From NCBI RefSeq assembly GCF_005160265.1, contig NZ_CP039865.1, positions 1,388,828-1,452,827 of the forward strand: a stretch of 64,000 nucleotides of DNA. The letters are read 5' to 3'. The notes beneath the pieces were generated by a model. That model was given only the letters and a program-made list of their open reading frames with translations. It did no database searches and had not been told where the DNA came from. The position numbers and the translations under genes were made by a program. The DNA is from Phreatobacter aquaticus. Lineage in GTDB: Bacteria; Pseudomonadota; Alphaproteobacteria; Rhizobiales; Phreatobacteraceae. Shown piece after piece: positions 56,582-64,000 of the stretch. The stretch's first letter is position 1, and each line of letters starts with the position of its first letter.

Positions 56582-56681
56582 TTCGCCGGGATTGCCGCAG
56601 GAGCGGCATCCGATAAAATACGTTCTTTCTTTGTTCTCATGGCGTGGCTAGCCTCCGGGCAATGTCTGGGGGAGATGTGTC

Positions 56682-59817: not shown

Positions 59818-60147
59818 GGTATCGGTTCCGGGAGAGGCGATGAGGCGAGACTAGGCGGGCGGGCGGGCCGCGCCAAGCGGCGGGATGGCGCAGGCTGTGC
59901 CCTGGCGGGACGATTCTAGCCCCATTGCCCTTTTTGCATTGGCGCCCAAGGACAGGCGCCGCCGCATCACCTCTCCCCGCCTGCGGGGAGAGGTCGACAG
60001 ACGCGGAGCGGCTGGCGGGTGAGGGGCTGAGGGCGCGCGCGTGGCCCCTCACCCTGTCCCTCTCCCCGCAGGTGGGGAGAGGGGACCGATTGCGCCATCA
60101 CGTTCGATTCCGCTGCGGCGATCGCAGGGGGAGCACCGCCCATTTGC
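59818..60147. other. 330-bp intergenic region with palindromic repeats
   Basis: Between the YejA-like gene start and the Lrp gene stop (both minus strand). About one third is the three-hairpin repeat at 59969-60083. The rest should include the yejA-like promoter; I see no clear -35/-10 pair and no ORF of note. Confidence 0.5.
59969..60083. repeat. dispersed GC-rich palindromic repeat element (three hairpins)
   Basis: Three stems: 12 bp at 59969-59980/59983-59994, 9 bp at 60019-60027/60044-60052, and 10 bp at 60058-60067/60074-60083. The CTCTCCCCGC-GCGGGGAGAG type is widespread in intergenic DNA of many alphaproteobacteria. It lies 65 bases downstream of the Lrp gene stop and may act in transcript 3'-end formation. 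Confidence 0.8.
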
Positions 60148-60609
60148 TCACCCGATCGGCAGCACATTGGTGTGCTTCACCTGCGCCAGCGCGAAACTCG
60201 ATTCGATCGAGGCCACCCCGTCGAGCCGCGTCAGCTTGTCCTTCAGGAACCGCTCATAGGCCGGCAGGTCGGCGCAGACGACACGCATGAGATAGTCGCG
60301 CTGGCCGGTCATCAGGTAGCATTCCATCACCTCCGGCCAGCGTGAGACGGCGCCAGCGAAGCGGTCGAGTTCCTCCTCGCGCTGGCGCTCAAGCCGGATG
60401 GAGATGAACACGCTGACCGGCAGGTCGACCGCCTTCTGGTCGACCACCGCGACATAGCCGCCGATGATGCCGGCCTCCTCCAGGAGCCGCACGCGCCTGA
60501 GGCAGGGCGTCGGCGACAGGCCGACCCGCTCGGCCAGCGCCTGGTTGGTGATGCGGCCGTCGCGCTGCAGTTCAGACAGGATGCGGCGATCGAGGTCGTC
60601 GAGCTTCAT
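60148..60609 (-). CDS. Lrp/AsnC family transcriptional regulator
   Basis: A 153-residue regulator. The N-terminal helix-turn-helix (residues about 3-62: LDDLDRRILSELQRDGRITNQ, GLSPTPCLRRV) is followed by the RAM/AsnC ligand-binding domain (about 68-145). Divergent from the E1-type dehydrogenase gene across 151 bp, which it probably controls; the Lrp-type MdeR/mdeB pair of Pseudomonas putida has a similar association. Confidence 0.94.
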   Translation of the reverse strand: MKLDDLDRRILSELQRDGRITNQALAERVGLSPTPCLRRVRLLEEAGIIGGYVAVVDQKAVDLPVSVFISIRLERQREEELDRFAGAVSRWPEVMECYLMTGQRDYLMRVVCADLPAYERFLKDKLTRLDGVASIESSFALAQVKHTNVLPIG

Positions 60610-60760: not shown

Positions 60761-63169
60761 ATGTCTGCCGGCCGCCCGTCCGATCCCCGCCTGCCCGTGC
60801 TGACCGAATTGCAGCGCAAGGTGCTGTGGCTCGCCTCCTGGACGATCCACCACGCCAACCACGAGCGCGAGAACCGCGACGGGTTGAAGGTGGGCGGTCA
60901 TCAGGCCTCCTCCGCCTCGCTCGCCACCATCATGACCGCGCTCTATTTCGCGGTGCTGCGCCCCGAGGACCGGGTGGCGGTGAAGCCGCATGCGAGCCCG
61001 AACTTCCACGCGATCCAATATCTGTTCGGCAACCAGACGCGCGAGAAGCTGGAGAATTTCCGCGGCTACAAGGGTGCGCAGAGCTATCCCTCGCGCACCA
61101 AGGACATCGACGATGTCGATTTCTCCACCGGCTCGGTGGGCCTCGGCGTGGCGCAGACGCTCTTTTCCTCGCTGGTGCAGGATTACGTGAAGGCCCATGG
61201 CTGGGCGAAGGACCAGGCGGAGGGCCGGATGGTCGCCCTCATCGGCGATGCCGAGATGGACGAGGGCAATATCTATGAGGCCCTGATCGAGGGCTGGAAG
61301 CACGGGTTGCGCAACACCTGGTGGGTGGTCGACTACAACCGGCAGAGCCTGGACGCGGTGATCCGCGAGGGCCTGTGGGAGCGCTTCGAGGCCATGTTCC
61401 GCAATTTCGGCTGGGACGTGGTGATCCTCAAGCACGGCAGCCTGCAGAAGGCGGCCTTTGCCGAGCCCGGCGGCGACCGGCTGCAGGCCTGGATCGATTC
61501 CTGCCCGAACCAGCTCTATGCGGCGCTCTGCTTCCAGGGCGGTGCTGCCTGGCGCAAGCGCCTCACCGACGATATCGGAGACCAGGGCCCGGTGAGCCAG
61601 CTGATCGAGCGGCGCTCGGATGCCGAACTCGCCGAACTGATGACCAATCTCGGCGGCCATGACCTGCCGAGCCTGCTCGAGGCCTTCGAGGCGATCGACC
61701 ACGACCGCCCGGTCTGTTTCATCGCCTATACGGTGAAGGGCCTCGGCCTGCCGTTCCAGGGCCACAAGGACAACCATGCCGGCCTGATGACGCCAACCCA
61801 GATGGAGGCGTTCCGCACCGCCATGAAGGTCAGGCCGGGCCATGAATGGGACCGCCTCGAAGGCCTCGGCCTGCCGGCTGGCGAGATCGAAGCGTTCCTG
61901 AAGCGCGTGCCCTTCGTCCAGAAGGGCCGCAGGCGCTTCATCGCGCCGAAGATCCCGGTGCCGGCGGCACTCGCCTATCCGGCGCAGGCCGCGATGTCGA
62001 CGCAGCAGGGCTTCGGCCTGATCCTCAACGAGGTCGCGCGCGGCGAGGGTGATTTCGCGTCCCGCGTGGTCACGACCTCGCCTGATGTGACGGTCTCGAC
62101 CAATCTCGGCGCCTTCGTCAACCGGCGCGGTCTTTTCGCCCGCAAGTCGCTGGCCGACACGTTCAAGCAGGAGCGGATTCCCTCCACCTTCAACTGGGAC
62201 TTCTCCCCGAAGGGCCAGCATATCGAGCTGGGCATCGCGGAAATGAACCTGTTCATCCTGCTCTCGGCCCTGGGACTGTCGCATTCCATCCATGGCGAGC
62301 GGCTGCTGCCGGTGGGCACGCTCTATGATCCCTTCATCCAGCGCGGCCTCGATGCCCTGAACTATGCCTGCTACCAGGACGCCCGCTTCATGCTGGTGGC
62401 GACGCCGTCCGGCGTGACGCTCGCCCCCGAGGGCGGTGCGCATCAGTCGATCTCGACGCCGCTGATCGGCATTGCGCAGGACGGCCTTGCCGCCTTCGAG
62501 CCGGCTTTCGTCGACGAGCTCGCGGTGATCATGCGCTTCGGCTTCGACTACATGCAGCGTGACGGCGAGGGCGATCCCGACGAGACAACCTGGCTGCGCG
62601 ACCAGACCGGCGGATCGCTCTATCTGAGGCTCTCCACCCGCACGCTCGACCAGCCGCAGCGCGCTATGACGCCGGAGCTTGCCCGCGACATCGTCAACGG
62701 CGCCTATTGGATGAAGCCGCCCGGGCCGAATTGCCAGGTGGTCATCGCCTATACCGGCGCAGTCGCCTCCGAAGCGATCGAGGCGGCCGGCCTGATGGCC
62801 GAGAGCCACCGCGATGTCGGCGTGCTCGCCATTACCTCGGCCGACCGGCTGAATGCCGGCTGGACGGCAGCGGAACGCGCCCGCCAGCGCGGCAATGCCG
62901 AGGCGCTGAGCCATATCGAGCGGCTGATCCAGCCCCTGTCGCGCGATTGCGGGCTGGTCACGGTGATCGACGGTCATCCGGCGGCACTCGCCTGGCTCGG
63001 CGCGGTCAACGGCCACAAGGTGAAGTCGCTCGGCGTCGAGCATTTCGGCCAGACCGGCACGGTGGGTGACCTCTACCGGCACTTCGGCATGGATACGAAT
63101 GCCATCCTCCATGCGGCGCAGGCGATCCTGGAACGGCGGCCGATCCGCTATCTCAAGGCCTTGCCCTGA
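60761..63169 (+). CDS. AceE/MdeB-type 2-oxoacid dehydrogenase E1 (transketolase-like)
   Basis: An 802-residue thiamine-diphosphate enzyme of the homodimeric pyruvate dehydrogenase E1 class. The N-terminal TPP-binding part has STGSVGLGVAQTLFSSL and GDAEMDEGNIYEAL (about residues 163-176). The central and C-terminal transketolase domains include FNWDFSPKGQHIELGIAEMN. It is about 85 residues shorter than E. coli AceE and has no E2/E3 genes beside it. Likely substrates are pyruvate or 2-oxobutyrate. GAGGA precedes the ATG. Divergent from the Lrp gene. Confidence 0.9.
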   Translation: MSAGRPSDPRLPVLTELQRKVLWLASWTIHHANHERENRDGLKVGGHQASSASLATIMTALYFAVLRPEDRVAVKPHASPNFHAIQYLFGNQTREKLENFRGYKGAQSYPSRTKDIDDVDFSTGSVGLGVAQTLFSSLVQDYVKAHGWAKDQAEGRMVALIGDAEMDEGNIYEALIEGWKHGLRNTWWVVDYNRQSLDAVIREGLWERFEAMFRNFGWDVVILKHGSLQKAAFAEPGGDRLQAWIDSCPNQLYAALCFQGGAAWRKRLTDDIGDQGPVSQLIERRSDAELAELMTNLGGHDLPSLLEAFEAIDHDRPVCFIAYTVKGLGLPFQGHKDNHAGLMTPTQMEAFRTAMKVRPGHEWDRLEGLGLPAGEIEAFLKRVPFVQKGRRRFIAPKIPVPAALAYPAQAAMSTQQGFGLILNEVARGEGDFASRVVTTSPDVTVSTNLGAFVNRRGLFARKSLADTFKQERIPSTFNWDFSPKGQHIELGIAEMNLFILLSALGLSHSIHGERLLPVGTLYDPFIQRGLDALNYACYQDARFMLVATPSGVTLAPEGGAHQSISTPLIGIAQDGLAAFEPAFVDELAVIMRFGFDYMQRDGEGDPDETTWLRDQTGGSLYLRLSTRTLDQPQRAMTPELARDIVNGAYWMKPPGPNCQVVIAYTGAVASEAIEAAGLMAESHRDVGVLAITSADRLNAGWTAAERARQRGNAEALSHIERLIQPLSRDCGLVTVIDGHPAALAWLGAVNGHKVKSLGVEHFGQTGTVGDLYRHFGMDTNAILHAAQAILERRPIRYLKALP

Positions 63170-63287
63170 GAGGGAGGGCGCGTACCGCTTTGGCACGGCC
63201 CGGTTAACACCGGCGGCGCGAGGGGCGTCCGCAGAGCTTTGGCCTGACCGGGCCGAAGGCAGACGTGCGGAACGCCGGATCAAAGCC

Positions 63288-63347
63288 GGAACAGGACCTG
63301 CGCAGCGATTCGGACATGGTTCGTTCGCGGCCTGGACTCAAGGTTAA
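63288..63347 (+). repeat. array module copy 1
   Basis: A 60-bp module: GGAACA, 13 variable bases, GATTCGGACATGGTTCGTTC (63307-63326), 17 variable bases, TTAA (63344). GATCAAAGC just upstream resembles GATCAGAGC before copy 3. The block contains a GANTC site (GATTC), the CcrM methylation target. Confidence 0.8.
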
Positions 63348-63553
63348 CGCGGGCAGGCCGTGAGGGCGGGATGGGGCGCTCTTGCGTACCCAATCGTGTG
63401 ATTTCCGTTGGAGATCGCCGACTTGCCGCCACGCCTGCGTGCCAAAGGGGGATCGGCCCGTTAAGGCCGGCCGATCCGAAGCCGGTTTGACCGCATGTGT
63501 TCCGGAATTCCAACCGTGCCACGGCAGGCAGGCTGAGGGGCGGAGCCAGACCG

Positions 63554-63613
63554 GGAACATCGGCTCTCAGCCGATTCGGACATGGTTCGTTCCCGTGCTG
63601 ATCTGCAAGTTAA
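63554..63613 (+). repeat. array module copy 2
   Basis: Same layout and spacing as copy 1: GGAACA (63554-63559), 13 bases, an identical 20-bp block (63573-63592), 17 bases, TTAA (63610). In this copy the spacer forms a 7-bp hairpin, ATCGGCT-CTC-AGCCGAT. It starts 266 bases after copy 1. Confidence 0.8.
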
Positions 63614-63816
63614 TGGCGGCGCGCTGCCGCCGGTTGGCGAGGCATCGGGGCGAACTGCGGGTCGCTGGGTTGCGGGCGGTGTTCTCAAGGCAGGGCGCTC
63701 GTCCCTGCCCGGGAGACGCCGTTAAGATCTTGGCGCTCCGAAGGGGCCCAGACGGCACCATACGAGCCCGACGACGCGCCCCGTCACCCGCCTGCCCGCA
63801 GACGCTGATCAGAGCG

Positions 63817-63876
63817 GGAACATCCATGCTCGGCCGATTCGGACACGCTTCGTTCACCGGCTGATCCATGCGTTAC
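63817..63876 (+). repeat. array module copy 3 (diverged)
   Basis: Same layout with two changes in the 20-bp block (63836-63855 reads GATTCGGACACGCTTCGTTC) and TTAC instead of TTAA at 63873. Internal spacings (13 and 17) are unchanged. It starts 263 bases after copy 2. Confidence 0.75.
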
Positions 63877-64000
63877 CGCCCTCGGCTGAAACCTGCCCTA
63901 TGGCGGTTGGCCCTTGCGTGGAAGGGGCGGCTTTCACGCATCCAGCGGAGATCCGGCCGGACCGGCGTACCACAACGGGATTGCGGCTTAAGACCCTTAG

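Follow-up and report, generated by a model that had tools for sequence, protein, structure and literature searches.

The tandem module that follows an aceE-like gene in Phreatobacter aquaticus is, as judged by sequence comparison, most likely a composite cell-cycle operator of a helicase gene that was copied and amplified at aceE and leuA. In its full form, to which we give an even chance, this reading derives each module from an ancient cis-regulatory element of Alphaproteobacteria, a composite of DNA sites that belongs to the control region of a Suv3-like helicase gene and is timed by methylation.

Three copies of the module GGAACA-N13-block-N17-TTAA were read directly in the window (the whole 64,000-nucleotide stretch of DNA analysed), with TTAC in place of TTAA in the third, and they were present with exactly the internal spacings and the 266- and 263-bp steps described in an earlier note on this DNA. 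All lie on the plus strand. The core of copy 1 (outer and inner GAAC-type half-sites, 20-bp block and TTAAC) occupies 63278..63349, that of copy 2 63544..63615 and that of copy 3 63807..63878. The corresponding blocks start at 63307, 63573 and 63836. The first, GATTCGGACATGGTTCGTTC (63307..63326), opens with the CcrM site GATTC, the motif YGATTCG lying at 63306-63312; the second (63573..63592) is identical to it, and the third, GATTCGGACACGCTTCGTTC (63836..63855), shows two changes. When the sequence was extended to the right, as the earlier note had proposed, a fourth block with one change, GATTCGGgCATGGTTCGTTC, was found on the same strand after a step of 255 bp. It begins 91 bp past the window end (contig positions 1452918-1452937, equivalent to window position 64091).

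The array begins immediately 3' of the stop codon of the aceE-like gene (60761..63169, plus strand), which encodes a homodimeric 2-oxoacid (pyruvate-type) dehydrogenase E1 with PDH_E1_M and Transketolase_N domains, in agreement with the location first reported. All four copies are contained in the 1.07-kb (1072-bp) gap after this gene and take up most of it. The flanking genes are convergent, the second being read from its open reading frame as an acyl-CoA dehydrogenase gene. Upstream of the cores, on the same strand, we observed TTAAC at 63204..63208, 103 bp before the block of copy 1 and within the -120..-101 peak of this word across copies, and TTAA at 63461..63464 (-112, copy 2), 63722..63725 (-114, copy 3) and 63988..63991 (copy 4, with its core just beyond the window end). 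A dyad, GTACC-N5-GGCAC, lies upstream of copy 1 at 63182..63196 and belongs to a weaker feature, GTYCC-N5-GGRAC, which many copies share directly ahead of their upstream TTAAC. Near -140 this feature seemed to vary in a compensatory manner, as a conserved hairpin would; its mismatches show a degenerate dyad.

In order to obtain a non-circular estimate of chance matches, an HMM was trained on 54 copies from other genera only. With this held-out model, the window copies scored 40.8 bits (63276-63349), 39.8 bits (63547-63614) and 40.9 bits (63806-63875), with E values of 5e-12 to 1e-11, and copy 4 reached 45.2 bits. The chance expectation by shuffling, raised in the earlier note, is thus answered by about 40 bits against a top score of 11.5 bits in 50 first-order shuffles of the window; the maximum in 400 kb of sampled genome sequence was 5.6 bits. 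Furthermore, the block pattern with up to three mismatches gave five matches in the whole genome, all on one strand and the fifth at 1932791, and the reversed control pattern gave none.

The proposed profile search of the genome and its relatives was equally positive. A genus model, a sequence-only profile of Phreatobacter copies, detected six copies in the P. aquaticus genome: the four of the aceE array, one upstream of leuA and one upstream of the Suv3-like helicase gene, the loci being situated at 1.17, 1.45 and 1.93 Mb. All 12 Phreatobacter genomes carry copies (1-6 per genome, at orthologous loci), and a clean gap separates E values of 3e-7 and 0.03. Copies downstream of aceE were found in nine of these genomes and copies upstream of leuA in nine. 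Since two large-genome members of the same GTDB genus (G003 and G008) hold the helicase copy only, and since the aceE array varies from one to four copies between species, this array is a genus-level copy-and-amplify event. At leuA, the element precedes a leader peptide in which four leucines follow one another, and lies outside the apparent attenuator. In Phreatobacter, leuA is preceded by a short leader ORF (SLLLLxRP-stop) and then by G+C-rich inverted repeats (L022:1653-1800; L008:1690-1830), an arrangement that, from its sequence, looks like a leucine attenuator.

Beyond the genus, a match at E<=0.1 was obtained in 231 of 298 genomes of the order, of which up to about 30 may be due to chance at this cut, and the best matches reached 1e-12. 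A model built on the order-wide copies found matches in 34 of 289 genomes of the class, mostly as single copies, in a sample that is uneven and in which some genomes were entered twice. Named carriers include Parvibaculum, Methyloligella, Cohaesibacter and Variibacter, together with members of the Xanthobacteraceae and Hyphomicrobiales. Outside the array, 75 loci were fetched by model or pattern (L085-104 and L118-172), a few of them representing one genome twice. In 66 of these, a helicase gene lies downstream on the same strand, and two more loci end after the neighbouring DUF3108 gene. The helicase product carries the Pfam domain DEXQc_Suv3, the DUF3108 gene is often upstream, and the loci, with tandem groups of one to four copies mostly 215-268 bp apart, span Hyphomicrobiales and other alphaproteobacteria. 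In two Caulobacterales-like contigs (L133 and L121), the element precedes a gene for an Hpt-domain protein, not the helicase. Judged by the large share of loci outside the array in which the helicase gene follows on the same strand, the helicase position is ancestral, and the copies at aceE and leuA were added later. The earlier note had preferred selection to a recent duplication: the element is indeed ancient, yet its array at aceE did arise by copying within the genus. In the helicase copy of P. aquaticus (L061:1515-1570), a perfect inverted repeat of 12 bp, GAACGAATCGGG...CCCGATTCGTTC, is accompanied by several GANTC sites.

A consensus was derived from position counts. It comprises an A+T-rich, CATAT-like patch, CACNANATNTWG, near -45, GAACRAA-N4-GAA at -29 to -16 and TCAG before the block, followed by invariant YGATTCG, GNC, TTCGTTC, CGTTC and GTTAA at +37. 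YGATTCG was present in 126 of 126 non-redundant copies, position -1 being always C or T (CGATTCG in the window copies), a count that is partly circular in that the search models reward the core. About half of the copies carry a second TTAAC near -112, against a background of 0.09 per kb in sampled genome sequence. The full CtrA site TTAA-N7-TTAA matched only twice near all elements, single TTAAC words being found instead, and reading of the element sequences revealed no convincing -35/-10 pair. The words flanking YGATTCG, GAAC-type on its left and GTTC-type on its right, are repeated every 11 bp: the direct-repeat autocorrelation of the column profile was 8.6 at lag 11 and 3.0 at the next lag, and for the Phreatobacter copies alone 8.5 and 2.0. 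A period of this length is close to one turn of the helix, and protein multimers bound to DNA would be expected to give it. Gap-free conservation, the 11-bp period and the invariant YGATTCG together make selection on a spaced protein-binding site well supported. Of the two targets of selection suggested by the earlier note, it is this one that stood, and the structured RNA that did not.

For the latter, no consensus fold was found for an 18-copy alignment, no base pairs were predicted on a 52-sequence alignment, consensus-fold energies were near zero in longer windows (-165..+60), no covariation was seen in the alignment and Rfam gave no match to the element, as the earlier note had anticipated in finding no known RNA family. 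Variable stems around the block were a single-sequence impression that vanished on alignment. In an unstructured alternative, the tandem units would be genes for small non-coding RNAs, with the block serving as a seed or as the 5' part of the transcript. The intergenic tandem units, the A+T-rich patch before the core and the convergent neighbours of the aceE array, which leave no mRNA to regulate in cis, are in its favour; the same folding results and an 11-bp conservation period, which is a feature of the DNA helix, speak against it, and we regard it as unlikely.

The core YGATTCG corresponds to the extended CcrM/GcrA methylation motif YGAKTCG, which was proposed for GcrA-activated methylated promoters and was not confirmed in Brevundimonas (PMC7987155). 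GcrA binding depends on GANTC methylation, including that of the Sinorhizobium and Brucella GcrA proteins (PMC3667746), and proteins are able to cover GANTCs in promoters so that CcrM does not reach them (PMC5172544). P. aquaticus encodes both partners: a CcrM at contig position 1907002 (PF01555 and RAMA domains; CcrMI 6pbd, E 5e-161) and a GcrA at 544388 (E 2e-54). In the class sample, GcrA was found in every genome carrying the element at E<1e-4, versus 187 of 289 genomes overall, a comparison that is confounded by taxonomy; the one element-bearing genome without GcrA (G352) has a weak partial match below the E cut. The element resembles the CcrM/GcrA-dependent promoters of Caulobacter (mipZ, ctrA P1 and podJ) in its YGAKTCG/GANTC core, in having TTAA half-sites within the same control regions (PMC4287350) and in a host with CcrM and GcrA. 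Unlike the element, however, the mipZ, ctrA P1 and podJ promoters are not reported to have a long 11-bp-phased inverted array or tandem 220-265-bp units. A further likeness is to the hypomethylated GANTC loci that MucR shields in Caulobacter and Sinorhizobium, for which the model is that a protein lies over the GANTC of a promoter and blocks CcrM (PMC5172544), but MucR has no known sequence consensus (PMC7987155) and the shielded sites described are other sequences.

Given the YGAKTCG core, the presence of CcrM and GcrA in the host, the methylation dependence of GcrA and the shielding of GANTCs by proteins, we propose a methylation-timed operator with a phased-repeat binding protein. The core, about 75-90 bp long, has GAAC/GTTC-type half-sites as inverted arrays that are phased by 11 bp on either side of YGATTCG, with TTAAC words similar to CtrA half-sites at about +37 and -112. 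The phased half-sites would be filled by a multimeric DNA-binding protein that lies along a single helix face and spans the central GANTC. CcrM methylation of this site and its read-out by GcrA would change with passage of the replication fork and toggle the element between its bound and its active state, and helicase transcription would thereby follow the cell cycle. Phreatobacter gained copies of the element in front of leuA and behind aceE, with amplification to up to four at the latter. Against this explanation, the aceE array lies between convergent genes with no downstream gene visible on its strand, and the TTAAC words at the flanks make up half of a CtrA site, not a whole one. The four-copy array is possibly a titration array or the site of an unseen transcript.

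More tentatively, and with somewhat less than even confidence, this would be an undescribed class-wide element in which a multimeric iteron-binding regulator over a CcrM/GcrA site forms a replication-timed helicase switch, duplicated whole by at least one genus into tandem arrays at metabolic loci where it perhaps titrates the regulator. The control element is apparently new to the literature: no published description of the block, of the DUF3108-helicase pair or of a Suv3 link was found in the open-licence literature, which is no proof of novelty. If the proposal is true, the element would rank among the most conserved non-coding regulatory sequences of Alphaproteobacteria outside RNA genes, and would let nature itself test which surroundings of GANTC sites attract CcrM and GcrA or keep them out. 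It would also tie cell-cycle methylation to the helicase family that gives mitochondrial Suv3, and would show that the regions around leuA and aceE can be rewired by operator copying.

Among named proteins, LexA is by analogy the leading candidate for the phased-repeat binding protein, since the alphaproteobacterial SOS box shares the word and the spacing and is used by the SOS genes of this genome. The Caulobacter version of this box reads GTTC-N7-GTTC, a direct repeat with an 11-bp period (PMC9578287). In P. aquaticus, GAACAWANNNNGAAC occurs 12 times, versus none for the controls, at genes read from their ORFs as lexA, recA, ssb/uvrA and imuA. The phased words could then simply be LexA operators, with the helicase region under SOS control and the copies bringing other loci under LexA. 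The right-hand box is a perfect GTTC-N7-GTTC in 38 of 68 non-Phreatobacter copies; however, a perfect box (GAAC-N7-GAAC on the left, all 8 of 8 positions) was found on neither side in any of the 29 Phreatobacter copies, and the left box ends in C in only 24 of 60 order-wide and 1 of 29 class-wide copies. The tetranucleotide and the direct-repeat geometry are the same, but in the element two boxes stand in opposite orientation, separated by about 30 bp, on either side of an invariant GANTC, with degenerate half-sites that are never perfect in the window copies, and LexA accounts neither for YGATTCG nor for the TTAAC flanks. We consider purely SOS-based control rather unlikely, although less so than the small RNA.

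A chromosome-maintenance site (of the origin, DnaA-reactivation or segregation type), with incidental proximity to the helicase, appears very unlikely. YGATTCG and TTAAC are joined by a perfect DnaA box, TTATCCACA, within 100 bp in three loci (L146, L149 and L170), and the three Phreatobacter loci lie in an apparently origin-proximal part of the chromosome, as judged by sampled skew and GGGNAGGG polarity. Those three DnaA boxes are, however, the only ones over all loci and form no cluster; copy number varies from 1 to 6 at lineage-specific loci, and the fact that one gene is strictly linked to the element on the same strand throughout the class speaks for a role in gene regulation. The element sequences also do not match parS, dif or DnaA clusters. 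Samples taken every 250 kb along the P. aquaticus genome show the GGGNAGGG polarity reversing near 1.9 Mb and again near 3.7 Mb, which suggests that origin and terminus lie there.

A mobile or passive repeat (MITE/REP-like) spreading by transposition would fit the dispersed and tandem copies of Phreatobacter genomes, but is hardly credible with only 1-6 copies per genome at orthologous loci, one locus conserved across the class, no terminal-repeat signature seen and no match in the 50,697 phage and 72,556 plasmid records searched, which also led us to reject a phage or plasmid origin.

Other identities were discarded. A coding sequence was excluded, as reading frames across the block differ at second codon positions and run into stops in other species. 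The EcfG promoter is GGAAC-N16-CGTT, a spacing that does not fit the element. NrdR boxes are usually paired; the A+T-rich patch at about -45 resembles one such box and the usual second box is absent. Control by Lrp, through the regulator divergent from aceE, fails to explain the class-wide helicase copies.

Elsewhere in the window, a LexA-type box, GAACAAAGAAAGAAC, is present on the minus strand at 56622-56636, and the intergenic region 59925-60170 has translations (SPLPACGER and LSLSPQVGRGD) that resemble those of palindromic REP-type repeats.
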